This document shows, in pieces, positions 23,076-41,760 of a stretch of 64,000 nucleotides of DNA. A model generated the notes under the pieces. That model was given only the letters and a program-made list of their open reading frames with translations. It was not told the DNA's origin and did not search any database. Source of the DNA: Tsuneonella aeria (GTDB lineage Bacteria; Pseudomonadota; Alphaproteobacteria; Sphingomonadales; Sphingomonadaceae). How positions within the stretch are numbered: position 1 is the first letter of the stretch; every line of letters begins with the position of its first letter. The stretch lies in the NCBI RefSeq assembly GCF_009827495.1, contig NZ_WTZA01000001.1:1562001-1626000 (forward strand), given 5' to 3'. The position numbers were made by a program, and so were the translations under genes.

Positions 23076-23124
23076 CGTGGTGAGCCCTGCTGGGTTCGAA
23101 CCAGCGACCTACTGATTAAAAGTC
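23076..23124. repeat. Left attachment site: 49-bp copy of the tRNA-Lys 3' part
   Basis: Identical base for base to 41712-41760. It covers the anticodon loop to the CCA end of tRNA-Lys but lacks the 5' half, so it is the displaced remnant of the original tRNA gene rather than a functional tRNA. Identity ends at 23124 (then TCCC, against AGTT at the right copy). Confidence 0.9.
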
Positions 23125-24612: not shown

Positions 24613-24795
24613 ATGCCCAACCCCCCCCTTCTTCGTGAAACGCAGGCTGCTGACTACCTCGGCCTTGCTCCCAAAACGCTAGCTAGATGGCGCTGGGCAG
24701 GCAAAGGCCCGACGTTCAGGAAGCTCGGAGCTGCTGTTCGTTATACCGTCTCCGACTTGGACGCCTTCATAGCTGATGCAGAGGTCGCTCGATGA
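24613..24795 (+). CDS. AlpA-like/excisionase-type HTH protein
   Basis: A 60-residue protein with a MerR-like winged helix: TQAADYLGLAPKTLARWRWA, then FRKLGAAVRYTVSDLDAFI, typical of AlpA and related recombination directionality factors. It probably regulates or assists excision with the integrase. Codons 3-6 contain an 8-C homopolymer (24621-24628), a possible slippage site. Its stop overlaps the start of the primase as ATGA, so the two are coupled. Confidence 0.85.
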   Translation: MPNPPLLRETQAADYLGLAPKTLARWRWAGKGPTFRKLGAAVRYTVSDLDAFIADAEVAR

Positions 24796-26867
24796 GTAGC
24801 CTGGCCTCGGCGGCTGCCGCCTATGTCGCAGAGGGGTTGGCGATTCTTCCCCTTCGTCCGCAATCCAAGCGACCAGCAACAAGCCACGGCAAGAATGATG
24901 CCTCAGCCGACGCGGCGCTTACCGCCCTTCGCTTCCCCAAGGAGACGGACCAAAACATTGGCATATTGACTGGCGCAGAGGCGGGACTGTTGGTCGTCGA
25001 CATAGATCCCCGGAATGGTGGGGAGGAGGCATTCGCGCGGCTTGAACGCGCCTTTGGCAAGCTGCCCGAGACCCGCAAAGTCACGACCGGGGGCGATGGC
25101 GTGCACCTGTATTTTCGCGTCCCCTCCGCGACAACAGGTTTGAGCGACCGCCCCAACGTGGCTGGATACCAAGGCGTGGACCTGAAAGCTGGCGGTTATG
25201 TCGTAGCGCCGCCGAGCATTCATGAATCCGGCAAGGCTTACGAGCTAGCGAATGACCTGCCCATGGCCTGCGCCCCCGATTGGCTCATCCGACTTGCCCA
25301 AGGAGGGAAGCGGATCAGACCAGCCGTGTCGAGGGGGAATGGCGCGATCAAGGAAGGCGGGCGCAACGACACGCTGTTTCGGATGGCTTGCGCATTGCGT
25401 TCGCGAGGCCTTGGCGAGGATGCAGTTCTTGCGGCGATCCTCGCAGAGAACGAACGACTTTGTTCGCCGCCGCTCGATCAAGATGAATGCGAGCGGATCG
25501 GGGCGAGTGCGATGCGCTATGAGCCGAGCACTGCCCATCCTGATACTGACTTGGGGAATGCGCGCCGCCTCGTAGACCGGATGGATGGAGCTGCGAGATA
25601 CGAACCTGCCTCTCGCGCATGGTTCGTCTGGGATGGCCGGCGCTGGCGGCAGGATGCGGCAGGTGAGGTTACGCAACTCGCGAAGGCCGTGGCGGATCAG
25701 TTGCTGTTCGACGCGGGGCAGATCAATGATCCTGAGACATCTAAGCGGCGATTGGCCTTCGCCAACCGGTCGCAAGGTATCGCTCGCATCAAGGCTATGA
25801 TCGACCTGGCCGAGACTGAGCCGGGAGTACCAATTTCATTTGGTCAGTTCGACCGCCAGCCGCACTTTTTGAACGTCGCAAACGGTATGGTCGATCTCCG
25901 CTCAGGCGCATTGGTCGCACCGGACCACTCTGCGTTCATCACTAACCTTATTGATGTGGATTTCGATGCCGACGCACGCTGTCCGGTTTTCGAGAGCTTC
26001 CTCTTCGATGTTCTCTCGGGCGACGAAGACCTAATCGAGTTCGTTCATCGGGCGATTGGCTACGCGGCTACTGGTGAAACGCGAGAGCAGTGCTTTTTCA
26101 TTTTTCATGGTGAAGGGGCAAACGGCAAGAGCACCTTCCTCAACGTCATTCGCGGTCTGCTTGGTGAATATGCGAAGCACACGCCTACCGATACCCTGGT
26201 TTCGAAATCCGGCGGCGCATCGAACGATCTTGCGCGGTTGGCGGGTGCCCGGTTTGTCACCGCCTCCGAGGCCAATGCTGACCAGCGCATGGCCGATGCC
26301 CCGGTAAAACAAATCACGGGCGACGAACCGATCACCGCCCGTTTGCTCTATCGCGAGTTCGTCACCTTTCAGCCGACCTTCAAGCTATTCCTGGCGACCA
26401 ATCAGCTGCCTCAAGTGAGCGGCAACGACCCCGCCATGTGGCGGCGCATCAGGACCGTCCCTTTCGACCGCGTGTTCCAGCCGGAAGAACAAGATCACAC
26501 GTTGTCGGAGAAATTGGCGACGGAACGCAGCGGCATTCTCGCATGGATCGTGCGAGGTGCCGTAAAGTGGTATTCTGACGGCCTCACCAAACCCGACGCA
26601 ATATCGCGCGCTAACGCCGAATATCGCGCCGAGATGGATTCGGTTGGTCAGTTCATAGCAGAGCGCTGCCACATATCGCGTGCAGCCGAGGTGTCCGCCT
26701 CGGTGCTCTACAACAGCTATCGTCGGTTCGCGAACGACAATGGGCACTCGCCCGTGTCTCAAACCATGTTCGGCAGAACACTTACCTCACGCGGCTTCAA
26801 CACGATCAAGCGCGGCGGGATTTTCCGCACTGGCCTGACCCTGCAATCAAATCTTCTGGAGGCATGA
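24792..26867 (+). CDS. Primase-polymerase / P4-type SF3 helicase fusion
   Basis: A 691-residue replication protein. The N-terminal archaeo-eukaryotic prim-pol domain (1-200) has the metal-binding DID of LLVVDIDPRNGG (70-72) and a His in GGDGVHLYFRV (about 105). The C-terminal half has D5_N and superfamily 3 helicase motifs: Walker A HGEGANGKST (about 440-449) and the FKLFLATNQLPQ sensor segment. It would let the excised island replicate from its own origin, as in P4-like satellites. Starts overlap both neighbours as ATGA. Confidence 0.9.
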   Translation: MSSLASAAAAYVAEGLAILPLRPQSKRPATSHGKNDASADAALTALRFPKETDQNIGILTGAEAGLLVVDIDPRNGGEEAFARLERAFGKLPETRKVTTGGDGVHLYFRVPSATTGLSDRPNVAGYQGVDLKAGGYVVAPPSIHESGKAYELANDLPMACAPDWLIRLAQGGKRIRPAVSRGNGAIKEGGRNDTLFRMACALRSRGLGEDAVLAAILAENERLCSPPLDQDECERIGASAMRYEPSTAHPDTDLGNARRLVDRMDGAARYEPASRAWFVWDGRRWRQDAAGEVTQLAKAVADQLLFDAGQINDPETSKRRLAFANRSQGIARIKAMIDLAETEPGVPISFGQFDRQPHFLNVANGMVDLRSGALVAPDHSAFITNLIDVDFDADARCPVFESFLFDVLSGDEDLIEFVHRAIGYAATGETREQCFFIFHGEGANGKSTFLNVIRGLLGEYAKHTPTDTLVSKSGGASNDLARLAGARFVTASEANADQRMADAPVKQITGDEPITARLLYREFVTFQPTFKLFLATNQLPQVSGNDPAMWRRIRTVPFDRVFQPEEQDHTLSEKLATERSGILAWIVRGAVKWYSDGLTKPDAISRANAEYRAEMDSVGQFIAERCHISRAAEVSASVLYNSYRRFANDNGHSPVSQTMFGRTLTSRGFNTIKRGGIFRTGLTLQSNLLEA

Positions 26868-27277: not shown

Positions 27278-27326
27278 TTGGACCGTTTGGACGGGCCACC
27301 CCAGTCTTCCCCCCTCTCTCGCTCAC

Positions 27327-28064
27327 ATGTCCCCTTTTATGTCGCAAACCGTCCAAACCATCCAAGCGGTCACCACTGGAAACAGCGCGAAAATACCGGC
27401 GCGGTGTGAAGGGATACCTCTCGCCACCAATTCTCACGCAACTTCGCTCGAATGTGCCCCATCTGAGTGGTCGCCGGTATTCCCACCCAGCCGAGGCGCA
27501 GACGCCGATGCCTTTCACGCCTACGTACTGATGCCGGGGCTTTCCGTCGCCTTTCACGCGACGACCCTTAACCGATCCCGGTCTATGGTTTCGCTCTATC
27601 GGAAGCGGGCGAGGGCAGCGGCGGAACGGAATCCGGAATTGTCCCTCCTCGTTCGGGGAATGGTAGAGGCGCTCACCCCAGCCGACGGTTTGCGGATGGC
27701 TCAGTTGCGCGGCTCCGGCCATCTGCCCTACTGGTCCCGCCTTGCGATCTGCGCATTCTGCAAATTGGGAGCGACCCGAGCCGACATCGCTGATGCGTTT
27801 CGGTGCTCGCTGAGCACAGCAGGAAACGTGCTTACCGGAAGAGGAGCGGCTTACTTTCCGTTGTCGGGGGAACGCAGGTTTACAGCCTCCCAGCTAAACC
27901 CCCCCAGCGAGGTTCACAACGGCATCCGGACCCCTTCAGAAGGGAGGCGGATAGAGAGGCGCCGCCTCCGCCTCACGCCACCTCAAGTGCTGCTGCAAAG
28001 TTTCGGCCAGTTGAGCTCTCCCGAAATCCCGGCGGACATGGGTTCGAGCGAACGTAGGGGATAG
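27327..28064 (+). CDS. Hypothetical island protein with a helix-turn-helix segment
   Basis: A 245-residue frame if ATG 27327 is used; in-frame starts also occur at 27171 and 27339. Coding character is strongest after about 27580: RKRARAAAERNPELSLLVRG, then WSRLAICAFCKLGATRADIA and ADAFRCSLSTAGNVL, the last part resembling an HTH that would bind DNA. The tail is Arg-rich. I cannot name a family. It ends 56 bases before the methyltransferase, so it might regulate the defence-like operon. Confidence 0.45.
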   Translation: MSPFMSQTVQTIQAVTTGNSAKIPARCEGIPLATNSHATSLECAPSEWSPVFPPSRGADADAFHAYVLMPGLSVAFHATTLNRSRSMVSLYRKRARAAAERNPELSLLVRGMVEALTPADGLRMAQLRGSGHLPYWSRLAICAFCKLGATRADIADAFRCSLSTAGNVLTGRGAAYFPLSGERRFTASQLNPPSEVHNGIRTPSEGRRIERRRLRLTPPQVLLQSFGQLSSPEIPADMGSSERRG

Positions 28065-28120: not shown

Positions 28121-29002
28121 GTGGCGGGTAAAGCACTGAAGGAAAGCACGGTTATCCAATTTCCGCGCCGAGGTGAGCCCCAGGCTCTCATCGAATGCGA
28201 GGATAACCTTTCGTTTATGCGGAAGCTCAAGAATGAGAGCATGCACCTCATCGTGACTTCCCCTCCTTACAACATCGGAAAGGAATATGAGCGCCGCACC
28301 TCGAACGATGTCTATGTTGAACAGCAAGCCGCAGCCGTAGCAGAGGCCGTCCGGCTACTTCATCCGAGGGGCTCTATCTGCTGGCAGGTGGGGAATAGCA
28401 TCGAGGACGGCGAGGTCTTTCCACTCGACATTTTGCTGTATCCCATCTTTAAGAATCATGGATTGAAGCTGAGAAATCGGATCGTGTGGACGTTCGGCCA
28501 TGGACTCCATTGCCAGAAGCGGCTCTCCGGAAGGCACGAAACAATCCTGTGGTTTACAAAGTCCGATGACTATACCTTCAACTTGGACCCAATCCGAGTG
28601 CCATCTAAGTACCCTGAGAAGAAGCACTTCAAGGGGCCTAATAGGGGAAAAGTTTCCAGCAATCCGTTGGGAAAGAACCCTTCTGATGTTTGGGATATTC
28701 CGAACGTAAAATCCAATCATGTTGAGAAGACTGATCACCCATGCCAATTTCCTGTTGGCCTTGTTGAGCGTTTAGTTCTTGCCCTTACAGAGAAGGGAGA
28801 TTCTGTTCTGGATCCTTACCTCGGTGTCGGATCAAGTGCTATTGCAGCTCTCAAAAATGGCCGACATGCATTCGGCTGCGATATCGGAGAGGAATACATC
28901 CAGCTTGCCCGCGGGCGCATTCAGTCGCTCCGGAATGGGGAGCTGCGAACGCGTCCCATGAACAAGCCGATCTATGAGCCGCCACTCAAGGGGGACCAAT
29001 GA
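28121..29002 (+). CDS. Beta-class site-specific DNA methyltransferase (N4-cytosine or N6-adenine)
   Basis: A 293-residue enzyme. The catalytic motif TSPPYN is at residues 46-51 and the SAM-binding motif DPYLGVGSSA near 231-240, so the order IV-TRD-I defines the beta class. The SPPY form of the catalytic motif favours N4-cytosine but does not exclude N6-adenine. GTG start, preceded by GTGAGG. It is the first gene of the cargo operon, and its stop overlaps the endonuclease start as ATGA, the classical layout of a type II R-M pair. Its job would be to mark self DNA. Confidence 0.9.
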   Translation: MAGKALKESTVIQFPRRGEPQALIECEDNLSFMRKLKNESMHLIVTSPPYNIGKEYERRTSNDVYVEQQAAAVAEAVRLLHPRGSICWQVGNSIEDGEVFPLDILLYPIFKNHGLKLRNRIVWTFGHGLHCQKRLSGRHETILWFTKSDDYTFNLDPIRVPSKYPEKKHFKGPNRGKVSSNPLGKNPSDVWDIPNVKSNHVEKTDHPCQFPVGLVERLVLALTEKGDSVLDPYLGVGSSAIAALKNGRHAFGCDIGEEYIQLARGRIQSLRNGELRTRPMNKPIYEPPLKGDQ

Positions 29003-29460
29003 ACTTCGCGGGAGCCTATTCCCTCCACAACGGACAAGCGGAGTGGGAAAAGCGGGAGTTGAGCGACTGGCTTACGGACCTCTTCGAGGCTCCAGGCATA
29101 GCGATCGGCAGTCGATGCACCAGCCGCATTAGGGAGCATTTGAAGGACGAACTCACGGCCAGTGGGTGGACCCACAATGTTCGCATAGAGCAGAACTGTG
29201 ATCTAACCGTCACCGGCAGATACCGAGATCTTGCCTTTCAGATCCAGACTGGAAACGTAAGCCGCGCATTCTACGACTTGATGAAAATGCAATATCTTTA
29301 CTTGGAGCACAAAATACAGGCAGCCGCTCTCGCCGTTCCGACTAAGGCCGCGGCCGCCCGCATCAATTCCAACATAGCGAGTGCCGAACGAGTTTGGAGT
29401 GAGGTCCAGATGTTTGATCGGATCATCACCTTTCCTCTACTCGTCGTTGCGTTTGAGTAG
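28999..29460 (+). CDS. Small BglII/BamHI-like restriction endonuclease homologue
   Basis: A 153-residue protein. Weak but consistent resemblance to the BglII/BamHI fold: an N-terminal helix pair, an acidic residue in EQNCDLTV (Asp68), then a strand with QIQTGNVSRAFYDLMKMQY (from Gln81), IQAAALAVPTK and a C-terminal ITFPLLVVAFE. BglII uses Asp...Glu-x-Gln; here the Glu position is Gln81, so catalysis may be altered or the protein may need a partner. It is also shorter than BglII (about 223 residues). Position directly after the methyltransferase, overlapping as ATGA, supports the call. Confidence 0.6.
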   Translation: MNFAGAYSLHNGQAEWEKRELSDWLTDLFEAPGIAIGSRCTSRIREHLKDELTASGWTHNVRIEQNCDLTVTGRYRDLAFQIQTGNVSRAFYDLMKMQYLYLEHKIQAAALAVPTKAAAARINSNIASAERVWSEVQMFDRIITFPLLVVAFE

Positions 29461-29470
29461 GGGGGGGAAC

Positions 29471-30820
29471 ATGGCAGGGTATCAAGTAAACACCAGTCCG
29501 CAGCACCAACGTAAGGACACAATCGCAGCGTTGGCAGCCAAGCCAGTTTGTGGCGAACAACCCACTTACGATGTCTATGAAGGACAGCGGACAATGCTGC
29601 CGGTAATCCGGCTGCCGCTCGACCTTCCCGTCTACCGGATGGCGAACGCGCGGACGCAGACTGCGCAGCTCGCCTTCATCGCCGAGAAGAAGCTGCAAGC
29701 AGATTTTTTCGAAGCTGGGCAGGACAATGAGGAGGCTCAGCAGGCTCAGCACAACATTTTGAAGGGGTACGCGCACGCAACCGCTGGCTCGATCAAGCCG
29801 ATCATAGATGAGCTTGATAGGACGAAGCAGACAGAGCCAATCATGATCACGCCTTCTGGGGTGGTCGTGAACGGGAATCGCCGGCTGGCTGCGATGCGGG
29901 AGCTATACTGGGACCGTAAATCAGAATTTCCCACTTTCGCTGAAGTAGAGTGCATGGTTCTTCCTCCGCTAACCGAGGACCAAATCGACGACATTGAGAC
30001 GCGTCTTCAGGAGAGGCCTGAGACAAAACTCCCTTACAGTTGGATTAACGAGACCCTTAAGATCAGGCGTCAGTTGCAGCAGAAGACAAAGAAAGAGTCT
30101 GACATCGCCGACATTCGCCGAAAAACAGTAGGCGACATTCGTAAATCTCTGAGTGCTCTCAACTATGCGGAGATTTATCTCCGGGATTGGTGCGGATCGC
30201 CGAATGACTACCGCTTGGTTGAAAAGGGAGGCGAGCAGTTTTTCAGTGATCTAGTAACCCGGCTGAAGGGCAAAGACGGCCCCCTCCTTGAAGCGAATCT
30301 GCGAATGGCTTGGTTGTTGTTCGACAACCGGGACAGCTTGGGAACACGTATATACAACTTCAACAAGGTGCTTGGTGAGAAGGCTGAGCAGGTCTTGGCG
30401 CAGCTAGCCGAGCGCCTTGATGTTGAGGATCAGGCGGATCCGGAGGAATCCTCAGGTTCTGACGACTCACTTGAAATCGACCTCGGAGATGTAGGGAATA
30501 GCGATGCAGCGTACGCGCCGTTGATCGAGATTTTTGATACTCCCGACGCGCGAGACGAGGTGTTCGACGAACTCCGGGCAGTCTGCCAGACCATCCTCGA
30601 TACCGGGCAGGCGAGCAAGCTGGGCAAAGCCGCTTTGAGAGCAGCTCAGGATGCAAACACTCGGCTAACTGAAATCGACCTCACGACCGCAGATCCTGCC
30701 ACTCATGCTGGCATCGAGAAGCAGCTTGACGAGGTTGTCCATCGTGCGACTGCCCTCCGAACGAAGCTTCACCAGATCAAGTCGGGAGATTCGAGCGCGA
30801 CGGAAGATGAATCGGAGTGA
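29471..30820 (+). CDS. ParB/sulfiredoxin-fold protein
   Basis: A 449-residue protein. A ParB-like core lies near residues 45-150, with EPIMITPSGVVVNGNRRLAA (GNRR at 135-138), the phosphate-binding motif of CTP/ATP-binding ParB folds. Later parts are helical (LNYAEIYLRDWCGSPNDYRL), with an acidic stretch (EDQADPEESSGSDDSLEID, about 318-336). ATG 29471 is preferred to a longer frame from 29381 because it follows an 8-G Shine-Dalgarno run and avoids a 90-base overlap with the endonuclease. ParB-like proteins in defence operons may bind DNA or act as nucleotide-dependent sensors or nucleases. Confidence 0.75.
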   Translation: MAGYQVNTSPQHQRKDTIAALAAKPVCGEQPTYDVYEGQRTMLPVIRLPLDLPVYRMANARTQTAQLAFIAEKKLQADFFEAGQDNEEAQQAQHNILKGYAHATAGSIKPIIDELDRTKQTEPIMITPSGVVVNGNRRLAAMRELYWDRKSEFPTFAEVECMVLPPLTEDQIDDIETRLQERPETKLPYSWINETLKIRRQLQQKTKKESDIADIRRKTVGDIRKSLSALNYAEIYLRDWCGSPNDYRLVEKGGEQFFSDLVTRLKGKDGPLLEANLRMAWLLFDNRDSLGTRIYNFNKVLGEKAEQVLAQLAERLDVEDQADPEESSGSDDSLEIDLGDVGNSDAAYAPLIEIFDTPDARDEVFDELRAVCQTILDTGQASKLGKAALRAAQDANTRLTEIDLTTADPATHAGIEKQLDEVVHRATALRTKLHQIKSGDSSATEDESE

Positions 30821-32715
30821 GCGCCGATCCCGTCACGATTGGAATCCAATACCTGCCCGGGAAATTGTCGGGACGGCTGGTGCTGGAAGGCTCTCCCTCA
30901 ACGTCCGTGTGGGAGCGGTTGCAGCAGACGGTCATTAACCTTGGCTTCGACTATTCCTTCGGACCAGGCTCCATTGAGCTGTCGTGGTCGGGCGTGCTCA
31001 CGCTGATCGGACAATTCGCTCCGCAACAAAAGCATCTCGATTTTCGATTCAGTCCGCGCGACGACGATGCTCGGGATAAAATCGCTGCATTTGTCCAGCA
31101 ATTCAAACAGGTTCAGCACTCGAAAGGTTCGCTGAAGCTGAGAATCACTCCAGAGGAGATCGAAGAGCGGCTCTTTGCTTCCGGCTTCACTAGAGAGCTG
31201 CGACCCTTTCAGCTTCGCGATCTGCAGCGTCTTCTCTCGCTGGAAAATGGAGCAAATTTCTCCGTACCTGGTGCGGGCAAAACTACTGTCACGCTGGCCC
31301 TGCACCTCCTTACGCGACAACCGAATCAAGTTTTGTTAGTGATCGGGCCCAAAGCCTCGTTTCCGGCGTGGCGGGAAGTCGTTTCTGAGTGCGTGAGAGA
31401 AGATGCGCCGGACGGCAATGCCGAGCCCTTCACTTTCCTAACGACATCGGGTGAAGCACTCTCCGAAGCTCTGCGCTCTGGGGCAACCCGCTTCGTCCTG
31501 AGTTACGATCTCATGATTCAGACCTCGGAGATAATCACCGAGTTCATGTCTCAACATCCAGTACACCTCGTGCTTGATGAGGCACATCGGATGAAAGCTG
31601 GATACGGCTCTCAGCGCGGATCACTGTTGTTGAACCTCGCACCACTCCCAATTCGGCGCGACATTCTCACCGGTACGCCAATGCCTCAGCAGCCGTCGGA
31701 CATCCAATCACAGCTTGATTTCCTATGGCCGGGCGCCGGGTTGGGGCTCCAAATTAGCCGCGGCACCGCGCCGCGGCAGGTGCTCGGAGAGCTATACGTT
31801 CGAACCACAAAGCAGGATCTCAATCTGCCGGAGCCGCTCCGCCACTTCCGCTCCGTCCCGATGGCCGAAGGGCAAATGGCACTATACGGAATCGTGAAGC
31901 ATGAATTCCTGCGGCAGGTGAGCACGCTCGGATTAGACGGTCGCTTCGATGCGCCGGCCGCTCGGCGCTCTGTCATGCGCCTCCTGCAGCTGTCTGCGAA
32001 CCCGGTTCTCGCGCTCCGTTCGATCGCAGATGATGCAATCAAGATGGACTCGGGAATCCTCGAACAAGTGATCTCAGAGGGCCCATCCACCAAGATGCGT
32101 GCCGTCGCAGACCACGCCCGGCAGCTAGCCGCAGAGGGCAAGAAGAGCGTCGTGTGGACAATCTTCACCGACACAATCCAACAGATGGAAGTGATGTTGG
32201 CTGACCTAAACCCGGTGAGCCTTTATGGCGCGGTGCCTTCCGGTGAGCCAACAGACCCCGAAACTCGCGAGGGGCGCATTCGCCGCTTCCATGAGGACCC
32301 GTCCTGTATGGTCATGATCGCAAACCCTGCTGCAGCAGGTGAAGGCATCAGCCTGCACAAGGTCTGTCATGACGCGATCTACTTGGATCGGAGCTATGTG
32401 ACGACACACTACCTTCAATCCATTGATCGGATCCACCGCCTCGGGCTGCCGCCCGGAGTCGAGACCAACATCTATATCTACCGCACACTTGCGCCGATGG
32501 GGCTCGGATGCATCGACCATTCGGTGAGTCATCGTCTACGCCAGAAACTGCGCGCGCTTCAGATCTTGCTTGACGATGCGGACCTTCACAGGATCGCACT
32601 CGATGAGGAGAATTCAGAGGACCCAATCGCCTGGGACATCAGCCCAGATGACGTTCGAGACCTCATCGAAGTGCTAGAAGGTCGCGGGAGTTTGCCGGAC
32701 GAGGAAAGTGAGTGA
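30817..32715 (+). CDS. SNF2-family DNA helicase/translocase
   Basis: A 632-residue SF2 ATPase of the SWI2/SNF2 group. After a 120-residue N-terminal extension come FQLRDLQRLL (Q-like), Walker A PGAGKTT (151-157), DEAH in VLDEAHRMKAG (about 254), motif III ILTGTPMPQQPSDI, and in the second RecA domain ANPAAAGEGISLHKV and SIDRIHRLGLP, the SNF2 form of motif VI. It should move on duplex DNA using ATP. GTG start overlapping the ParB-like stop (GTGA), and its stop overlaps the next start (GTGA). Confidence 0.92.
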   Translation: MSADPVTIGIQYLPGKLSGRLVLEGSPSTSVWERLQQTVINLGFDYSFGPGSIELSWSGVLTLIGQFAPQQKHLDFRFSPRDDDARDKIAAFVQQFKQVQHSKGSLKLRITPEEIEERLFASGFTRELRPFQLRDLQRLLSLENGANFSVPGAGKTTVTLALHLLTRQPNQVLLVIGPKASFPAWREVVSECVREDAPDGNAEPFTFLTTSGEALSEALRSGATRFVLSYDLMIQTSEIITEFMSQHPVHLVLDEAHRMKAGYGSQRGSLLLNLAPLPIRRDILTGTPMPQQPSDIQSQLDFLWPGAGLGLQISRGTAPRQVLGELYVRTTKQDLNLPEPLRHFRSVPMAEGQMALYGIVKHEFLRQVSTLGLDGRFDAPAARRSVMRLLQLSANPVLALRSIADDAIKMDSGILEQVISEGPSTKMRAVADHARQLAAEGKKSVVWTIFTDTIQQMEVMLADLNPVSLYGAVPSGEPTDPETREGRIRRFHEDPSCMVMIANPAAAGEGISLHKVCHDAIYLDRSYVTTHYLQSIDRIHRLGLPPGVETNIYIYRTLAPMGLGCIDHSVSHRLRQKLRALQILLDDADLHRIALDEENSEDPIAWDISPDDVRDLIEVLEGRGSLPDEESE

Positions 32716-33533
32716 TTGCTTCGTCGGATATTCCGGCCGAATTCCGAATGAGCGCTTTTACAGCGGCGATCGGAATTTGCAGGTATCTTCGCGATCACCC
32801 CGGCACAGCCGCTGAGGATGCGGCGCTCGCATTAAGACGCAGTGATGCAGATTTCGCGGGTGCAGATTTCACGGGCGGCCTTACTCTGGTCGGGCGGCTA
32901 CCTGAGGACCTCGCACTAGCGGACATCTCTGTGTTCATACGAGAGGCACTATCCGCCCTGATTGAGGTGCACCGCCCTTGGTGGATCAAACTCAGCCCAT
33001 ATGGCCGGCAGCGTCTGGCGAGTGCACTAACACTGGACGAGCAACAGACTTTTCGCGCTGCGGGTCTTTATGATCCACAACCGTCTTCAGAGGCAATCGA
33101 GTGGTGGGACCGACTGGCTGCCCAAGCGCGCGCGGATCAAGATGAGCGCCTTGGCGCCCAAGGCCGCCGGGCGGAACTCTTATCACTCAATCACGAGATC
33201 GAGCGAATGAAGACCGAAGGCATTCAGCTGGCGCCGGTTTGGACCGCCCTGGATGACAATGCGGCGGGATACGACATCAGGTCGTACAGCAAGACGCTGT
33301 ACGGGATCGCCAACCTCCTAATCGAAGTGAAGTCTACCAGTCGAACTCCGCCTCGCATTATCCTCACCCGAGGCGAGTGGGAGGCCGCACAGAAGTACCA
33401 AGCTGCCTACACTTTTCACATTTGGCAATTTCCGGACGAGACGCTCACCATCCGGACCGTCCAAGACATTTCCGCGCACATTCCTGATGACCGTGGGGAG
33501 GGCGCCTGGCAGAAAGTCGAGATCATCATCTGA
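32712..33533 (+). CDS. DUF3883-type protein with a PD-(D/E)xK-like core
   Basis: A 273-residue protein. The C-terminal ~90 residues match DUF3883: GYDIRSYSK (Asp188), then NLLIEVKSTSRTPPRI (Glu205-x-Lys207) and ILTRGEWEAAQKY, a pattern widespread in defence and helicase-associated proteins and thought to be a nuclease-like or DNA-binding fold. The N-terminal 170 residues are helical with no clear family. GTG start overlaps the SNF2 stop as GTGA, so the two proteins are probably made in fixed ratio and may act together. Confidence 0.8.
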   Translation: MIASSDIPAEFRMSAFTAAIGICRYLRDHPGTAAEDAALALRRSDADFAGADFTGGLTLVGRLPEDLALADISVFIREALSALIEVHRPWWIKLSPYGRQRLASALTLDEQQTFRAAGLYDPQPSSEAIEWWDRLAAQARADQDERLGAQGRRAELLSLNHEIERMKTEGIQLAPVWTALDDNAAGYDIRSYSKTLYGIANLLIEVKSTSRTPPRIILTRGEWEAAQKYQAAYTFHIWQFPDETLTIRTVQDISAHIPDDRGEGAWQKVEIII

Positions 33534-33655
33534 CGTAGGCCCGGAACACCCGCGGCTGATGCGCCCCGGAGTCCGCAAGAAATTAGTCGATGCAGGTGGT
33601 GACATGAAGCTGAGTTAGGGGCTGGAGTCACCAGGGCGTTGATAAATCGCCCAAC

Positions 33656-36600
33656 TTGCTGTTCAAAGGACAAGACTGGCGCTGTCTCGGTCCCGAATGG
33701 GCTGGCGTTGCAAGAGGGGCAGGGGATTTGGTTGCTTTCCCGAAAGTCGAGACCGATTCTCGGGAATCGCGATCGCGCCAACAACTGCAGACTTGTTGGC
33801 CGCTCAATCAAGACGGGCCGCTCCCGCGGCATCTGATCGATCCAGAGCTTGTTCGTGCATCCTTGTTTGAGACTCTGCCTGCCGTCCGAAACTGGCCCAC
33901 GTCAGCTCTACGGCAGGGCCTAAAAAGAGCGGCTAAACGGCTCAAGCTGCCGATTGAGCGCATCCAGGGAGTCGAGGGCGATCCGCAAATCTTGCGGGAC
34001 CGCGCGCTCGCTTATGGCTTCGCCGATGACCCAGCCGGTCGAGCTCACCTCCCCTCGATCGAAGTTTCGATAAAAGATCGAGACCCTGTTCGGAGGGGTG
34101 AGTGGCTGTCGGGTATAAACGCCAACTTGGCTGATCTTCTTTGGGGCTGGTACTGTGAAAACTCTGAGTTCGATGATCTGGTCGAGTGGGTCAAAGAGAT
34201 TGCGATTGAGCGCCCGTACATTAAACGAAACGCCTACTTCATTACCGAAGAGGTCCTCGTCTCTTTAGGAAACGGAGGTGAGCTTCCCCTTGCTCTTGAT
34301 GATGCGGACTTCGCGACTACGCTCCTCCTGTTTGCTGCACAGTTAGCGCCCGATGAAGCACTTCAAATGCTTCGTGCCGCAGCCGGGCTGGGGGTAAGCT
34401 CCTTCTCAGAGCTTCTCTGCGATCAAACGAATGTCGTTGAGCTCGCGACTGTCGAAAAACAGCGCGACAAGCCGGAGCCTCGGTCGCCTTCGGAAGCGCC
34501 CCAGAAGCCATCCCTTTTGTTTGAAAAAGGGCCGCGCCTTGCTACTCTTGACCCCAGCGATCTTGCTCTTGCAGAGCTACCCTCTCCGAGGAAGGAGGTA
34601 CAGGAGGCGCTCGCGCCCCTGCGGAAGTTAGCGGCCGATGCGGCCGAAGCAGAGTCAGCTTTCTCTAAAGTGGACCCCCTGCTCTCCATTAGCAATCTAA
34701 CCCATCTGGAGGACGACGACTACAATAACGTCGTCAAGCTGGTGACGAACGTCCGTGATACTCACCGGCAGAAAAATGCGATGTGCGACGCGGTGCGCGA
34801 AGAATTGTTGAACCGCGTCGAGAGCTTGCTTGCCTTGGCTCATGTGCCGGCGCAGCAGTGGATTACTGCCTTCTTCGATGGAGCAGATATTCATTCCCTC
34901 TGCGAAATCGCCAATCAAGTCGACACCGCTGAGCAGCTGATCTCAGGCGAGATAACGCCGGAGGCGCGTTACGCTTTATCTGCCCGTGTCGAAAGGGCGC
35001 GGCACTTCACTGACCTTGTTGATGCCTGCCGATGGTTTTCAGCTTTCCGAACACAACTAGCCGCTCGAGCTAGTGCGGAGGCAGCGTTCGTGCAGGAGGC
35101 AAAAGCTTACCTGAGGGAGGCGAAGCTCCCTCAGGTCGTCGAGTGGCTTGCGAATTTGGACAGTGCAGAGGTTGAGTGCCTCGCACGCGAAACGACGTCT
35201 GACAAATGGCCCATCCAGCGGAGCCTACTGTTTCGATTAGGGATCGATAAAGGCGAAAGCTTCGCCGATTTCTGTCAACGGGCATTGACTGGTGAAACGA
35301 ATTTCCAGTCCCGTCGCAACACAATGGTCTATTTCGATCCAGCTTCGGCCGCATTCGACCGACACCCGGTGCTGCAGCGGATCATAGCCGTAGAACGGTT
35401 CCGCGACCTGCTGGAATTCGGACCATTGGCAGCAATCACAGACCCGACAAGCCGCCTGTGTGACGCAGAGCTCGTGGGCACCCCTAGCAGCAACCTAGTG
35501 GGTGCTATTGTGAAGCATCTTGATCTAGTTGGCGCAGGTAACGAACTAAAACGTCTCGCTTGTCCCTTGGAGCCGCTCGACGATCATGCAGAGCAATCGT
35601 TGCTCGCGTTCGCTGCTCAAAGTTTCATTCCGTCGAACCTATATTTGCAGTTAAAGGAGGTGGCTCGCGAGCAGTTCTTCGCGCCGCTTGTTCGAGCCGG
35701 GGCTGTTATTCCTGCGCAGGCGGGAAAGTTCACCCGCACCTTCAACATCGAGGATGCCGTGAGCTTCGCGGTCGAGGCTGTGAAGGACGCTTCTCCAAAG
35801 CTCACCCGAATTGAGAAGCGGCATGAAGCGTACCTTGAGCGATACCTCCGTGTCGGCGAGAACCTGGTGCAGGCCTACGATGCAGCAGCGCGGCCAGAGA
35901 CAAAGGGGCGTCGCAGAGAGTTCCGGCAAGAGCTCGCAGATCATGTGGCTGCACTGGCCACTGAAGGGGGTGAGATTGGCAGCAAGTCTTGGCTTGAGGC
36001 GGAGATACGCGCCGCTCTTTTCGGTGACGGTGCGGGTCACATCCAACCAACATTAGTCGGCGTGGCTACGCCCCTCGCGCGACAGGAATGGACCGCGGCC
36101 GACAGTTTGCGCGCGCAAGAATCGTCACTTTTCCTCCCCGAGTTCTATATCAATGAACCTCTCACCCGCCTTGAGGTATGTGCACTGGGCCTTCGCTTGT
36201 GGGCCGCCGAAGAAACGCTCGAACCAAGGGATATCGTTGAAGAATTGCTATCCCGGGAACTGTTTCAAGCCGCGCTCTCGCTGATCGACGACGCTCCTCT
36301 TACGGATGAGGAGCGTCGTCTGCTCAAAGAGAAGGCCTCTTCTTCGGCCGCTTCTGCCATAGCCCCTCTGCGGCAGCAGCTGGACGACCTGAAGGCAAGA
36401 TATGGACAGGCGGCGGTTGAGGCGTCCCCGGTTTGGCAGGAAATCTTGGCTGCCCTTGATCATGTGAACCTCACCGAAGCTCGCACGTGTCTAGAGCTGC
36501 TCGAGCTGGACGTCGAAGAAGCAGAGGACGCTGCGGTGCCAGAGCCTCAGCCTGCTTTCAGCGGAGAGGCCGCCGAAGTTCTCCGGCTCCTTTTGAAAGC

Positions 36601-39598
36601 TGGTGTGCAAGGGGTGAGCCCCGACTGGACCACAGAAGATCTCAAAACTCGATGGCGCACGGAACTCCACCAGCGGGTGGACGAGCGAACTCACTTGCGC
36701 CTCGTTCAGCGAGCGCTCGATGACGCGCCTTCAGATGTGGCCATGATCGAGGACGTGCGAAGCTTCTTTGCGCAGTCAGAAAACCCCGATCTTTGGCTTC
36801 CAGCCGCCCGAGCGAAGGAGTTTTCGGACCTGCTGGAAGCGGCGGCAGAAAAACTGAGGACGTGGGTTCAGACTTCCCCTGCTTTCGAACCTAAGGCTCG
36901 ACGCGCATTGGCTGAGATCGTGCGTTGGTTTCAGCGCTTTGTCGTCGATCAATCGACAGCTCTTCGTGCCGTTGGCGAAGGCGGTAGCGTTGACGATCTT
37001 CTGGAACATGTGTTGGAAGCTGTCGACTGCATCGAGCAGCCGTCTGATCCCGTTAGCTCTTTGAGCGCCCTTGTTGCCATGGGCGAGCTAGAGGAACTTA
37101 GCTCTGATGAAGAGCCGGGCGAGATATCGCCAGCCTCTGTCGCGCCGGCTTCCCCAAAGGCGACGCAAAGTGCCGAACTCAGCGAATTCGTCGAATCCGA
37201 AGATTGGGCTGCTCTCGCCGAAGCTTCTAGATCCTTGCGCAGCCAAGCCAATCAGGACGAGGCACGTCGACTGGATGATCTTGGGGACTTCGCGGACACG
37301 ATGCTGGCCCTCGAGAAGGGGGATGTTTCCGCGATTGCTGGAGGTCTGGTGGGGGCGGCGCGCAGCCTAAGTGCGGGTGGCCAAGTGGTCAGCCGGATCA
37401 TGCCGCTCAAACGTCAGCAGGCGGTTGCTGCAAACCTTCTCGCAGCCGCCCTAGCGCAAGAACAGGGCCCGGCTGCCCAACTTCCGCGGCCGGCGCTCGA
37501 CGGAAGCTGGGCGCCTCTCTTCACGCGACGTGGCGACTTGCTCAGTGTTCTCGAAGGAGGGACACAAGCGACTAAGGTCCTTGAGCAGCTTAGCACAGGT
37601 GCACTGGGGCGTGAGATTATTGAGCTCATCTGGGACGCGCCAACCAAAACGGCTGATCCCGGCCAGGCTCGTGCAGCCTTCCTGTCTTTTCTGCACGACA
37701 GACGCCTCGACGAGCACATCCTCGCCCTTGCGCAGCGGCACGATCCCGGCATCAGATCGCGCTTGGGTCAGCTGCTCGACCTGCGAGCCGTCGCGGCTAC
37801 TCGCCCCGATTTGATCCCGATGTCTCAAGCCGTGGCAGAGCAGGTAGCCGCCTCTGCCCGAACGCTTCCTTTTCGAACCTTTGTGAAGTCACTGCCGAGC
37901 GCAGGGACTGCATTGGATATCGACCTCATCGTGGAGGCCGAGAAGGACATCGTCCTCCGGTTCAACCAGCGGCGTGCATGCGAAGTCACAATTGCCGTCT
38001 CTGTCCAGCCTCAGGGCATGGTGCCGGAGCGATTGGAGTTCAGCCTCTTTCCTGAAGATGATGTAAGCTTCACCGACGGCTCGCGCCGGTACACTGCAAC
38101 CGAACAGCCAATCTACATGTCTACCGAATGGCCGCTGACTATCTCGTTCGGCGAAACTTGGGGTGCTGGCGAGCTAGGCAAGGAGAGTTTCCGCCTACGT
38201 GCAAGCGCACGTTTGCTCACAGGCGACCTGGTCAATCGCGATGTTCTGTGCTCGCTCGTGCGGGCAGATCGAGAAGCCACCGGGCTGCGCCGGATTGACA
38301 ATGAAACGCTCATCGAGACCTATCCAGGAGTGGAGAGCACGCCTGCGCAGGACGAGGCGTTCATTGGCCGATTTGACGAGCTGGAGCAGCTGAACGAGGC
38401 TCTTGTCACTGCCCGTCGGCCGAGCCCGGTCCTGCTCACTGGTATGCGCCGCATCGGCAAGACCTCGTTGCTCTATGCCTTCCACGAGAAGAACAGGCGT
38501 CCCACGCCCAACGGAGCTGTGACCGTCTATCTGTCAATTGCTGAAAAACGTGCTGCTTTGATGGATCCGCAACGCGACGTGGGGAGCACGATATTCTCGA
38601 CCATACTGCATGCTTTGGGGAAACACCGGTTCGGCCAGTCTGATCACAATCGTTTCGTCGGCGAAAAACTTCAGCACTCTCTCGGCAACGAGAAAGGTGC
38701 GGTACGCCACGCCCTATCAGACCTTCGCGACCCCGAAAGCCTGTCCGACAGTTTGATACTGCTGGGCGAGCATCTGGTGGAATGGCTCGGCGGTGTCAGC
38801 CGGGTCGTCTTCTTGATAGACGAAGCCGAGACCCTGGTGCTTCCGTACCGCGCAGGTGGGGCTAAGCGATTGGAGCTTGAGCAGTTCCTACAAAGCTTGC
38901 GGGAAGTCTCTCAATCATCGCCTGCTGTCGGCATACTGTTGTCAGGAAGCAACCACATCGCGGAATTCGCGAAGTCATATAAGAACGCGTTTTTCGGCAG
39001 CTCGCGCCAGATCGAGCTCGGGGGACTGTTCGATTATGATCTTGCGCGCCGAATGGTTGCTCCGAGCCAAGTTGAGCCTTACGTGCGCTTCGATCATGAG
39101 GCTATCCGCTACGCGATCCAGATGTGCGCCGGTATGCCGCAGTTTCTGTGGCAAGCCGGCGCTGCTACGACAGCGCTAGTCCGAACGGGGCCAGTCACTC
39201 GGTCTGATGTGCGCCGGGGCATTGCCGCGATCATAGCCGATCGAGTCTCAGAACTGCCATTCAAGGCCTATAATGTGCTTGAGCCCGTCGAGCACATGCT
39301 TGGTCTTCAGGGGGAGCGGGAGCAGGACCTCCTTTGGCTACTGCTTTGGCGGGTCGCGAATGCAAGCTCCTTAGTCGCAGACGAAGCCCAGCAACACTTC
39401 ATAATCGATCAATCTCTACTAGAACTCGACGACCCAGATGCTTGGAAGCAGCGATTGATAAACCTCGTCGATCTGAACATCCTCGAAATGCCGCGCTCTG
39501 CCATGTATCGGTTCAAAGTCCCCATCTTCGCTGAAGGCTTTCGCGCGCCTCGCCACCGCCAAAATTATAATCTGCGGCACCAGAGAGCAGCCGCTTGA
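33656..39598 (+). CDS. Giant protein with C-terminal STAND/AAA ATPase domain
   Basis: About 1,980 residues. The first ~1,550 are mostly helical and match no family I know. A C-terminal ATPase follows: Walker A LLTGMRRIGKTSLLYA (about 1594-1609), Walker B VVFLIDEAETLV (about 1717-1728), a sensor segment GILLSGSNHIAEF, and a winged-helix-like end (MYRFKVPIFAEGFR), the organisation of archaeal-type and other STAND NTPases. The start is uncertain. TTG 33656 is the first usable codon after an in-frame TGA (33611); no ATG occurs for the first ~240 codons. It is read after a 122-base gap, while its stop overlaps the last gene as TTGA. Confidence 0.8.
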   Translation: MLFKGQDWRCLGPEWAGVARGAGDLVAFPKVETDSRESRSRQQLQTCWPLNQDGPLPRHLIDPELVRASLFETLPAVRNWPTSALRQGLKRAAKRLKLPIERIQGVEGDPQILRDRALAYGFADDPAGRAHLPSIEVSIKDRDPVRRGEWLSGINANLADLLWGWYCENSEFDDLVEWVKEIAIERPYIKRNAYFITEEVLVSLGNGGELPLALDDADFATTLLLFAAQLAPDEALQMLRAAAGLGVSSFSELLCDQTNVVELATVEKQRDKPEPRSPSEAPQKPSLLFEKGPRLATLDPSDLALAELPSPRKEVQEALAPLRKLAADAAEAESAFSKVDPLLSISNLTHLEDDDYNNVVKLVTNVRDTHRQKNAMCDAVREELLNRVESLLALAHVPAQQWITAFFDGADIHSLCEIANQVDTAEQLISGEITPEARYALSARVERARHFTDLVDACRWFSAFRTQLAARASAEAAFVQEAKAYLREAKLPQVVEWLANLDSAEVECLARETTSDKWPIQRSLLFRLGIDKGESFADFCQRALTGETNFQSRRNTMVYFDPASAAFDRHPVLQRIIAVERFRDLLEFGPLAAITDPTSRLCDAELVGTPSSNLVGAIVKHLDLVGAGNELKRLACPLEPLDDHAEQSLLAFAAQSFIPSNLYLQLKEVAREQFFAPLVRAGAVIPAQAGKFTRTFNIEDAVSFAVEAVKDASPKLTRIEKRHEAYLERYLRVGENLVQAYDAAARPETKGRRREFRQELADHVAALATEGGEIGSKSWLEAEIRAALFGDGAGHIQPTLVGVATPLARQEWTAADSLRAQESSLFLPEFYINEPLTRLEVCALGLRLWAAEETLEPRDIVEELLSRELFQAALSLIDDAPLTDEERRLLKEKASSSAASAIAPLRQQLDDLKARYGQAAVEASPVWQEILAALDHVNLTEARTCLELLELDVEEAEDAAVPEPQPAFSGEAAEVLRLLLKAGVQGVSPDWTTEDLKTRWRTELHQRVDERTHLRLVQRALDDAPSDVAMIEDVRSFFAQSENPDLWLPAARAKEFSDLLEAAAEKLRTWVQTSPAFEPKARRALAEIVRWFQRFVVDQSTALRAVGEGGSVDDLLEHVLEAVDCIEQPSDPVSSLSALVAMGELEELSSDEEPGEISPASVAPASPKATQSAELSEFVESEDWAALAEASRSLRSQANQDEARRLDDLGDFADTMLALEKGDVSAIAGGLVGAARSLSAGGQVVSRIMPLKRQQAVAANLLAAALAQEQGPAAQLPRPALDGSWAPLFTRRGDLLSVLEGGTQATKVLEQLSTGALGREIIELIWDAPTKTADPGQARAAFLSFLHDRRLDEHILALAQRHDPGIRSRLGQLLDLRAVAATRPDLIPMSQAVAEQVAASARTLPFRTFVKSLPSAGTALDIDLIVEAEKDIVLRFNQRRACEVTIAVSVQPQGMVPERLEFSLFPEDDVSFTDGSRRYTATEQPIYMSTEWPLTISFGETWGAGELGKESFRLRASARLLTGDLVNRDVLCSLVRADREATGLRRIDNETLIETYPGVESTPAQDEAFIGRFDELEQLNEALVTARRPSPVLLTGMRRIGKTSLLYAFHEKNRRPTPNGAVTVYLSIAEKRAALMDPQRDVGSTIFSTILHALGKHRFGQSDHNRFVGEKLQHSLGNEKGAVRHALSDLRDPESLSDSLILLGEHLVEWLGGVSRVVFLIDEAETLVLPYRAGGAKRLELEQFLQSLREVSQSSPAVGILLSGSNHIAEFAKSYKNAFFGSSRQIELGGLFDYDLARRMVAPSQVEPYVRFDHEAIRYAIQMCAGMPQFLWQAGAATTALVRTGPVTRSDVRRGIAAIIADRVSELPFKAYNVLEPVEHMLGLQGEREQDLLWLLLWRVANASSLVADEAQQHFIIDQSLLELDDPDAWKQRLINLVDLNILEMPRSAMYRFKVPIFAEGFRAPRHRQNYNLRHQRAAA

Positions 39599-41517
39599 GG
39601 TCGGACATCAGCTGGTTTGCCGACAGGGCAACGACAACCTGGTCGGTGCAACCCGGTCGATCCTTCATTCTCATCGTACCTGCAGGTTGCGACATGGACG
39701 GCGCGGCGGCCGACGTGAAGCGTTGGTGCGCTGATAACATGCAACCTCCGCTTGAGGGGCACAACAAACGCCCTGCCTTCATTTCCCTTGCGGTCGATAA
39801 TGTTAGTTCCAGCCATCACTTCGTTCACCGCGTCGGAAAGCAGCTAAACGCGATCAACGCCGACGTGAGCAATGGAGTGGACGAGCATTATCCCGCTGAT
39901 CAGTTGGCTGAACTGGTCGAGAACGCGAATGACTGCGGTCTTCATCCGGTGATAATCATCAACCGATTTCATGCCTTTGCGCGCATTGCTGACGATCATC
40001 TTTTGTCTGTTCTTTCAACAATGCGAACACTAGAGAACGACGGCCTTCTCACCACCTTGGCTTTGTCACCAATGCGTTACCAAGCGCTGCGGAGGAAGCT
40101 TAGCCAGGCTGGTCACTATCCTTTCGTAAACTCAGCATACGGCGATAATCATGATGAAGTCGGCTTAACTCCGATGAGTCGGGAGGATTTCGTTCATGCC
40201 GCCAAACTCGCCGGTCTCAGCAATCCAGATGCGCATCGACTATACAGTTACGCTGGAGGCCCCGACGAGGTTAATAAGGCCCTGATAGCCTGCGGTTCAG
40301 CAGGTTTGAATGGCGTTGTCGAACGAGCTGCGGCCCTGCTGGGAGACCGGCTTGAGAGCTTCTTCGACAATGCGATTGATCCGGAGCTTCCAGAACGGGA
40401 CGAATTGCGAGTGCGCCTAGCGACTGGGCAGGTTCAGCCCAGCCAAGAAGACTATCTTGAAAGTTCAGAGGGAGCGCCCTTCCTCGTTCGAAGAACAGCC
40501 GGCTCCCGCTTAGTTGCAGCTTCGCCCGTGCTAAGCCGCCTACTTCTACGGGGTCGCGGTGGCACTTGGCGCCGCTACGACCAGGTTCTCGAGCAGCTAA
40601 ATGTGAAGAACTACGCAGGCGCTGCGGAGATGGTCTCTCTCCTCGATCATAGAACACCTCATCTTGAGGTCTTCGCCAAGTTCGTGATGATGCTTAGGGC
40701 GGTCCACGCCGCCAAGAAGCCGGGGCTACTGGGCATCGACTGGCCTTCCCTTCAGCAAATCGGAAGCTCGTTGGATTTAGACGATCCCTTAGTGAGCCCA
40801 CATTCGGACTGGATTCTGACGCTAGTTGATTGGTCTTCGCGAGTGCGGCGCTCCGTCGACCCAAGCGTTAGCCCTCACGTTCGCCTTGACGTTCTACTGC
40901 GGAACGCGGCCGATCAGGAGGTGCAGAGATTGTTCGTGTTCATGATCTCAACTTTCCTGAGCAAGTGTGCGTCGAGCGACTCTCCCGCGCAACGGATTCG
41001 AGATGCAGCAGTGATCCCGGAGTCCATCCTGCAAGCACTCGCCTATTCTCTTGGCATAGACATCCGTTCGGCACCAGAGCGCCTTCCCGCCGTCGACTTT
41101 CAGCCTTTCTTCGGCCGAAAAGAGCCCTTCGAGAGCCCTGCGCCAGGGCAACGCATAGCGATGAGCCACCTGCTGGTTATCGTGCCGGCTATTCTCGCGG
41201 ATACCTGGACAAAGAAAGAGGCTCTTCCGTCGCTCCTCGATCCGACGAAAGTTGTACCGCTGCACCAGAAGTTGGTTGATCGTTTCAAGAACGCGGCATC
41301 TCACACCTACAGTGATGCGACTGAGGATGACGCGAGTTTTTTCTACTCTCTCTGTGGAGGCTGGTTGGAAGACCTGAAGGCCATCTGGAATCTGGATTGC
41401 GCTGCGGGCAGAGAGGTAGAGCCACCCCAACCAACCCCTGATCACCTTGCCCAGCTACTTTTTGGGGAGCCACCGAACACTCCCCCCGACTGCTTGGAGG
41501 CCGAGTGCGCCGGCTGA
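39595..41517 (+). CDS. Second ATPase-like protein, nucleotide motifs apparently degenerate
   Basis: A 640-residue protein starting at TTG that overlaps the giant gene's stop (TTGA). The N-terminal ~270 residues look like an AAA/STAND core: SFILIVPAGCDMDGAAADVK in the Walker A position lacks the G-K-T/S, and HPVIIINRFHAFARI in the Walker B position lacks the Asp-Glu, then LTTLALSPMRYQALRR as sensor. The remainder is helical. The arrangement suggests a catalytically dead partner that pairs with the giant ATPase. I do not recognise the family, and a missed variant Walker motif cannot be excluded. Confidence 0.65.
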   Translation: MRSDISWFADRATTTWSVQPGRSFILIVPAGCDMDGAAADVKRWCADNMQPPLEGHNKRPAFISLAVDNVSSSHHFVHRVGKQLNAINADVSNGVDEHYPADQLAELVENANDCGLHPVIIINRFHAFARIADDHLLSVLSTMRTLENDGLLTTLALSPMRYQALRRKLSQAGHYPFVNSAYGDNHDEVGLTPMSREDFVHAAKLAGLSNPDAHRLYSYAGGPDEVNKALIACGSAGLNGVVERAAALLGDRLESFFDNAIDPELPERDELRVRLATGQVQPSQEDYLESSEGAPFLVRRTAGSRLVAASPVLSRLLLRGRGGTWRRYDQVLEQLNVKNYAGAAEMVSLLDHRTPHLEVFAKFVMMLRAVHAAKKPGLLGIDWPSLQQIGSSLDLDDPLVSPHSDWILTLVDWSSRVRRSVDPSVSPHVRLDVLLRNAADQEVQRLFVFMISTFLSKCASSDSPAQRIRDAAVIPESILQALAYSLGIDIRSAPERLPAVDFQPFFGRKEPFESPAPGQRIAMSHLLVIVPAILADTWTKKEALPSLLDPTKVVPLHQKLVDRFKNAASHTYSDATEDDASFFYSLCGGWLEDLKAIWNLDCAAGREVEPPQPTPDHLAQLLFGEPPNTPPDCLEAECAG

Positions 41518-41711: not shown

Positions 41712-41760
41712 CGTGGTGAGCCCTGCTGGGTTCGAACCAGCGACCTACTGATTAAAAGTC
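41712..41760. repeat. Right attachment site: 49-bp direct repeat inside tRNA-Lys
   Basis: Identical to 23076-23124. It covers the tRNA 3' part from the anticodon loop through the encoded CCA plus two bases beyond. Recombination here regenerates a complete tRNA-Lys on the chromosome side. Confidence 0.9.

Follow-up and report, generated by a model that had tools for sequence, protein, structure and literature searches.

Kaur et al. (2021; PMC8195603) describe, in the portion of their text that was available, a mobile operon of two genes. Both code for STAND NTPases assigned to a novel family, nSTAND2, with a conserved arginine finger in each. One of the two NTPases is eroded in its NTP-binding motifs and carries an effector as a fusion; the effectors vary, GT4 and HEPN being the most frequent. 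The operon is a predicted counter-invader system. In the accessible part of another study (PMC3710099), DUF3883 is named a novel restriction endonuclease (REase) domain, and the Ava_2192 group has an SNF2 helicase with DUF3883 and a HEPN-ATPase protein near restriction-modification (R-M) genes. Type II R-M systems of the BglII/BstYI kind have a two-gene, helicase-free layout. Here we compared with these systems seven genes, called A to G, at positions 28121-41517 of a 64,000-nucleotide stretch of the Tsuneonella aeria genome (hereafter the window). In our reading, held with moderate confidence, they represent two defence modules that share one 18.6-kb P4-like tRNA-Lys island, namely an ATP-dependent R-M cassette (A-E) and an nSTAND2 pair (F-G). 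Genes A-E are a recurrent, unnamed restriction cassette, and the sequences of F-G fit the already predicted nSTAND2 two-gene system in most of the features tested. The seven genes are as follows.

28121..29002, + strand: gene A, N6/N4 DNA methyltransferase (MTase) with a TSPPY motif; PF01555 (N6_N4_Mtase), E-value 6.2e-51
28999..29460, + strand: gene B, short BglII/BstYI/BamHI-like protein with QxQ replacing ExQ/E; PF09195, E-value 3e-4, below cut-off
29471..30820, + strand: gene C, ParB-like protein with an NGNRR motif; 14-row family, profile match to a Bacillota plasmid ParB-like family
30817..32715, + strand: gene D, SNF2 ATPase/translocase; PF00176 (SNF2-rel_dom), E-value 1.7e-10
32712..33533, + strand: gene E, NOV_C/DUF3883 PD-(D/E)XK protein, proposed cutter; PF13020, E-value 2e-11
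33728..39598, + strand: gene F, giant protein whose C-terminal STAND/AAA ATPase motifs are intact; AAA_16, AAA_22, Walker A
39595..41517, + strand: gene G, eroded nSTAND2 protein with a C-terminal HEPN-type RNx3H motif (K565 here); PF20702, E-value 4.5e-128

According to the list of open reading frames (ORFs) of the window, seven plus-strand ORFs fill the interval in this order, and neighbours overlap by 4 bp at four of the six junctions (A/B, C/D, D/E and F/G), both as described in an initial annotation of this DNA. Its domain calls of an MTase, a BglII-like protein, SNF2, DUF3883, a giant with a C-terminal ATPase and a second ATPase-like protein were matched by our searches, the BglII match lying below the cut-off. 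Gene C probably starts at the ATG at 29471, directly 3' of a run of eight G, and hence begins 10 bp past gene B. The start of the giant gene F is probably the TTG at 33728, with a G-rich stretch just upstream (the ORF itself opens at 33656), which leaves a gap of 194 bp between E and F.

The gene content and the separability of the two groups can be read directly from the sequences. The complete order A-B-C-D-E is present on a plasmid of Paracoccus denitrificans (locus L002) and at loci L034 and L040, with identities to the window proteins of 77-78% for A, 53-58% for B, 38-40% for C, 56-57% for D and 35-37% for E. Neither F nor G was found in the stretches examined of these three five-gene relatives. 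In three further replicons, the set is present except for B. A scan for F in one genome per species yielded seven loci, six of which harbour true F relatives; G lies directly behind F in all six (7/7 with the window locus), and A-E were found beside F in none of the four loci having ~9-10 kb of upstream sequence (L015, L016, L018 and L020). In a sample of the class, no full-length match to F was found in 384 other genomes, four weak matches being to its ATPase part, and the genomes surveyed hold no second instance of the seven-gene unit. As each group recurs without the other, A-E and F-G appear to constitute two modules rather than one system. The gene neighbourhoods of their relatives speak against the single seven-gene operon proposed in the initial annotation, and the conservation in other genomes that it set as a test was found for A-E as a block, not for the whole array.

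All seven genes might yet form one two-layer system, in which F-G would guard A-E and fire on its inhibition, a scenario that we regard as quite improbable. They share strand and island with no other recognised cargo, what seems to be an R-M locus is close to F-G in L015 (a C5 MTase and a Vsr gene recognised by eye, a HATPase protein matched in Pfam), and a PrrC-like logic has been proposed for HEPN proteins beside R-M genes (PMC3710099, accessible part). However, a gap follows E in the window, F-G is found without A-E beside type I-F CRISPR genes (Csy2 and Cas3; L018) and beside GreAB-C/PIN conflict genes (L020), and the five-gene relatives do without F-G in three of three cases.

MTase A, whose motif order we take to be that of the beta class, connects the first module with BglII/BstYI type II R-M. 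The Pfam BglII model was run against 289 genomes and matched 23, and 20 loci, from all but three of these genomes, were analysed. At 8 of these 20 loci, the BglII-family gene adjoins an MTase gene whose product is 64-71% identical to A, and none of the five canonical MTase-BglII loci among those eight that were extended to 5-17 kb has C, D or E. In an unrooted MTase tree of 15 rows, in which L041 forms a long branch, the eight canonical-associated and the seven C-D-E-associated rows are split by one branch (support 95/92), and the four B-bearing rows make up one group with weak support (73/72). A cognate adjacent MTase, a feature of BglII/BstYI type II R-M, is thus present in the window, as are a common MTase lineage and an adjacent BglII-family protein. 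In contrast with those systems, B is shorter and devoid of the catalytic Glu, and the ParB-like, SNF2 and NOV_C genes that follow depart from the two-gene, helicase-free layout.

The BglII-like Pfam match of B spans 132 residues, and tblastn aligns B with a true BglII-family member (L073) at 35.6% identity over 73 amino acids (aa; E-value 2e-7). In weak hidden Markov model (HMM) alignments (E-values of 0.05 for BstYI and 0.49 for BamHI), B reads FQIQTG or FQLQTG where BstYI has AIEVQFG and BamHI has MEFETG. Gln replaces the catalytic Glu in all four B copies (Q81-x-Q83 in the window), so that the Asp...Glu-x-Gln/Glu arrangement of BglII/BstYI endonucleases is absent from B. Of the four, only the window copy retains the Asp that precedes this site; the remaining three lack it. 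The same site was read in the BglII-family relatives through HMM searches, with seven seeds from an earlier, biased motif-filtered set; all 20 loci were recovered, one being gapped at the site, and the 19 readable ones have Glu in 15 cases and Asp in 4. B is 153-154 aa long, compared with mostly >200 aa open frames in the canonical relatives, and an SNF2 gene follows it in 4/4 B-bearing loci versus 0/5 extended canonical loci. These data indicate that B is a BglII-like protein without the catalytic Glu, probably inactive as a nuclease, and we propose that it may act as a DNA reader. The loss of the Glu had been missed in the initial annotation, which called B a BglII/BamHI-like nuclease homologue.

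The ParB match of C in Pfam is marginal (E-value 0.08), too weak to sustain the earlier ParB-like call, which is supported by PHROG_620, a ParB-like partition protein family (E-value 3e-4), and by a GNRR motif invariant in 14/14 aligned rows. Among the candidates scored, 637 relatives of C were collected at E-values <= 0.001, and a profile comparison linked C to a Bacillota plasmid ParB-like family (probability 98.1, E-value 7.6e-14). In D, the Walker A GKT and Walker B DE are kept in 23/23 rows and the DRIHR of motif VI in 22, the exception being DRINR in L046. In E and its 12 relatives, residues G151, E155, D188, E205 and K207 are invariant (13/13 rows), which is the PD-(D/E)XK pattern, and we regard this NOV_C protein as the likely cutter.

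Searches for the C family covered 98, 385 and 398 genomes, the T. aeria genome included, in partly overlapping sets. They gave matches in 11 genomes besides our own, with D next to C in 8, all in Pseudomonadota, and a NOV_C-type gene comes after D in all eight of these C-D loci. This was established with Pfam for L033, L034, L035, L036, L039 and L041, with tblastn and alignment for L040, and by eye for L038, whose contig is only 4.4 kb long and whose NOV_C motif was read up to the contig end. The constancy of NOV_C behind D suggests that ParB-SNF2-NOV_C is a fixed trio in Pseudomonadota. An N6/N4 MTase gene is present in six of the eight C-D stretches (L034, L035, L036, L039, L040 and L041) and was not found in the L033 stretch, the L038 contig being too short. 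As the T. aeria genome contains two N6/N4 MTases in total over 2.75 Mb, chance would not be expected to place one in a stretch of this size. B was detected by tblastn in L034 and L040 only, and the interval between A and C in L035 and L036 is too small for it. No new C locus was found among 142 relatives of G153.

A family of 280-319 aa proteins, called Y, occupies the position before ParB-SNF2-NOV_C in five loci (L003:5510-6373, L033:8042-8944, L042:599-1555, L043:5498-6337 and L044:5498-6340). These proteins share the motifs CRH, IQKGCPDG, WWLC and RPCPK, the four of the five that were scanned have no Pfam match, and C5 MTase genes are found in the stretch of three of the five loci.

We also looked for ParB-SNF2 pairs on plasmids, where tblastn with D returned 179 records. 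A ParB-like/SNF2 pair was found in 15 of the 18 regions examined, L049, L052 and L053 being other SNF2 contexts; for L004, the pair was deduced from ORF positions identical to those of L005, and its MTase was recognised by motif only. MTase genes of C5, type III or A kind are present in 11 of the 15 regions. Type III mod/res genes lie beside the pair in Enterococcus, Lactococcus and Limosilactobacillus plasmids, further regions have C5 MTases accompanied by Sau3AI/MutH, Vsr or other genes, and A itself is present in L002. A NOV_C/DUF3883 gene follows the pair in 5/15 regions, all in Alphaproteobacteria. The initial annotation had suggested looking for a ParB-SNF2-DUF3883-giant ATPase block with varying partners: the trio does recur with varying R-M partners, and the giant is separable from it.

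Side observations were made in several of these plasmid regions. In two enterococcal plasmids, a protein of 860-864 aa precedes the ParB-SNF2 pair instead of a recognised R-M gene (L047:3840-6434 and L050:3851-6433), with a Sigma70_r4-like helix-turn-helix (HTH) in L047 and no Pfam match in L050. In the rhizobial plasmids L049 and L052, SNF2 genes lie near genes for DGQHR, radical SAM, ATP-binding and PIN-like proteins, with ParB in L049, a set that is possibly an unnamed DNA-modification cluster.

The intact catalytic residues of E and motifs of D are the basis of the roles that we propose for A to E; for both modules, what we say of the biochemical steps, of which protein does what, of the DNA targeted and of the phenotype is inferred throughout. 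MTase A would protect host sites, in keeping with the earlier suggestion that it marks self, which we judge plausible. ParB-like C and, where present, BglII-like B as a DNA reader would engage unmodified DNA, the SNF2 ATPase D would move along it, and the NOV_C PD-(D/E)XK protein E would cut. We tentatively suggest that this might be a restriction type in which a catalysis-dead type II enzyme serves as the reader of a ParB-like/SNF2/NOV_C machine, with a ParB-SNF2 part portable across R-M systems of type II, type III and other kinds in both Pseudomonadota and Bacillota. If this is correct, one MTase lineage would be found either alongside an active BglII-like enzyme that has no motor, or alongside a motor with the enzyme inactive or missing, providing a natural comparison of the exchange between ATP-independent and ATP-driven restriction. 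A recurrent ParB-SNF2 module would be added to the R-M repertoire, and it would explain some of the genes annotated as 'DEAD/DEAH helicase' and 'ParB domain' beside plasmid R-M genes.

Several observations weigh against the proposed roles. B cannot be the sole reader, since it is absent from L035, L036, L039 and L041, and it could be a reduced nuclease, with its link to BglII below the Pfam cut-off and the Asp kept in the window copy. Its fold and its reader role, like the HEPN fold of G, are deduced from sequence. Of the 11 C-family genomes, three have no D in the stretch: in L037 (L026/L037), D is not next to C over 18 kb, whereas the sequences of L029 and L032 are short, match C weakly and contain none of A-G according to tblastn. 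No MTase was seen in 4 of the 15 plasmid regions (L007, L042, L047 and L050), whose annotation is incomplete; HsdR and HsdS genes of a type I kind are nonetheless present in L050. The Bacillota ParB-SNF2 pair looks like an add-on rather than a restriction engine, as a complete type III system lies beside it and no NOV_C gene is annotated.

ParB-SNF2 might instead be an accessory of general use, loading onto DNA that enters the cell and aiding any co-resident R-M enzyme or overcoming anti-restriction, E being one of several effectors. The frequency of the pair in the plasmid regions, the presence of one or another kind of MTase in most of them and the relatedness of the plasmid ParB families with C speak for this explanation, which we consider somewhat unlikely given the fixed NOV_C-type gene after D in the eight Pseudomonadota genomic loci. 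It is unlikely, in our view, that B is still a working restriction enzyme with an unusual site, A-B being a plain type II pair and ParB-SNF2-NOV_C a separate second-line defence that travels along. The extent of the BglII-like match, the alignment with L073, the Asp of the window copy, the several kinds of R-M genes that ParB-SNF2 pairs accompany and the presence of family Y in the place before C-D-E are compatible with such a role. It is made less likely by the Gln of all four B copies and the loss of Asp in three of them, when Glu or Asp is kept in 19/19 readable relatives, by the short length of B relative to the canonical frames, and by the lack of C-D-E next to the five extended canonical pairs.

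For the second module, F is a protein of ~1950 aa with an ATPase at its far C-terminus, matched by AAA_22 above the cut-off, and its Walker A motif, GMRR[IV]GKT, is intact in 21/21 rows. By contrast, Walker A is absent from all 24 G rows holding the N-terminal stretch (35 G rows in total); one G row has a stray Walker A match at residue 385. An RNx3H motif, typical of HEPN ribonucleases (RNases), is present at the C-terminal end of G in 32 of the 33 rows with letters there, the window copy being the sole exception. The locus thus has two adjacent STAND NTPase genes, of which one partner has eroded NTP-binding motifs (G) and the other intact ones (F). In these features, in the HEPN-type family motif of the eroded partner and in its location on mobile DNA, F-G resembles the nSTAND2 operon as presented in the available portion of PMC8195603; it differs from it by the K for R in the motif of the window G. 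The call of gene 7 as ATPase-like agrees with the nSTAND2 match of G; its eroded P-loop and the HEPN-type family motif had been overlooked.

In the mechanism that we envisage, F would be an active STAND ATPase, probably also the sensor, G would be an eroded STAND partner bearing an RNase-type effector, in its HEPN version, and the infected cell would be shut down or killed once the pair is activated. Such a predicted suicide system, although linked to A-E, lends itself to an assay of its own. Not all data agree with this scheme. F was assigned to the STAND class by resemblance, its AAA_16 match being below the cut-off and the nSTAND2 model giving no match, and no HEPN model in Pfam matches G. 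At residues 563-571 of the window G (41281-41307), Lys565 (AAG) replaces the Arg of RNx3H, and this copy may consequently be weakened. Profile searches against solved structures gave no match for G or C and marginal SMC1A matches for F (E-values 0.006-0.008). In L016, F-G has a 2038-aa neighbour without a Pfam match. L018 has an apparent CRISPR array; within an ORF, its repeats give the reading LSAAYPAGN.

We searched for a named system corresponding to A-E, and PADLOC 2023, NCBIfam and Pfam yielded only helicase, MTase or NOV_C matches. The earlier statement that no named system is known with this gene set agrees with these searches for A-E, and F-G fits the predicted two-gene system (PMC8195603, available portion). 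In PADLOC, the best 25 of 69 families for A are all type II or orphan MTases, no family was found for B, C or G, F has marginal ATPase matches (best E-value 0.004), and D and E are matched in part; the relatives tested gave the same picture. DISARM, Zorya, Dpd and BREX have SNF2-type or related helicases, and D partially matches ZorD, DpdE, DrmD, DrmA and BrxHII, whereas PADLOC gave no match of B-G to the other components of these systems. In the case of DISARM, DrmB and DrmC are without match and D matches DrmD (E-value 8e-5) and DrmA (0.02) in part only; for BREX, neither PglZ nor BrxC is among the matches listed for A-G, and the BrxHII match of D is partial (0.04). Neither a ZorAB motor nor a TGT-type DpdA was matched, the partial ZorD and DpdE helicase matches of D standing alone. 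As for type I and III R-M, no HsdR, HsdS or Res match was above the cut-off, with ResIII only at an E-value of 0.047 in D. E matches the NOV_C parts of PDC-S36, TmtA and PD-T4-1 (E-values 1e-7, 2e-7 and 1e-4, respectively); PDC-S36 is similar in size to E and matches the L034 copy with an E-value of 1.6e-11. Here, E follows ParB-like and SNF2 genes. For MADS, a further candidate, the exclusion extends as far as the PADLOC scan.

The Ava_2192 group differs from the window in that its SNF2-DUF3883 is one fused protein and its ATPase overlaps DUF499, and the accessible part of PMC3710099 mentions no ParB-like or BglII-like gene for it. A ParB-SNF2-DUF3883 system was not found in the literature searched, as far as its texts were available, subscription journals and preprints being outside its scope. 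The A-G set is not described in the available portions of papers on BREX (PMC12839542), Dnd (PMC10853773), polyvalent proteins (PMC5512222) and MORC (PMC2292703), nor in those of PMC3459991 and PMC6098607. A phage origin was discarded: neither B nor C matches any of 50,697 phage records, and when viral contigs were scanned for C, no relative was confirmed. F, G and the DNA of the block gave no plasmid match.

The island that carries both modules has the following further features.

23076..23124, no strand: attL, a 49-bp part-copy of tRNA-Lys, perfect direct repeat of 41712-41760
23276..24502, + strand: tyrosine integrase of the island; Pfam Phage_integrase, E-value 7.5e-21, PHROG_1
24792..26867, + strand: P4-type primase with Prim-Pol and D5_N; Pfam E-values 1.1e-38 and 4.7e-27, TIGR01613
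41714..41789, - strand: tRNA-Lys (ttt), integration site; ARAGORN, attR copy at 41712-41760

The two 49-bp repeats, the second of which is inside tRNA-Lys, bound the island, which contains the integrase, the P4-type primase, two small ORFs and A-G. This agrees with the initial annotation, which had presented the genes as defence-type cargo of a tRNA island. The two small ORFs have no family match above the cut-off. These ORFs, of 137 and 297 aa in the primase-MTase interval (26864-28064), also have no PHROG match, and the 297-aa ORF has a faint HTH_23 match (E-value 0.004). The GC content is ~68% outside the island and 52-62% inside. Promoter-like sites are at chance level (3 versus a mean of 4.3), and terminator-like sites are slightly above it (17 versus 12.5, sd 3.4).

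In nine of ten other same-genus genomes, the right flank of the island finds its counterpart, at 71-77% identity, next to the same tRNA sequence, and the match to the left flank in these genomes is limited to the tRNA-derived 48-69 bp. In the tenth, G002 (locus L079), 48 bp of the right flank were matched and nothing more. G002 contains the tRNA-Lys sequence three times over 17 kb (G002:C1:148051-165069), which suggests stacked islands at tRNA-Lys in this genome and makes the site look like a hot spot.

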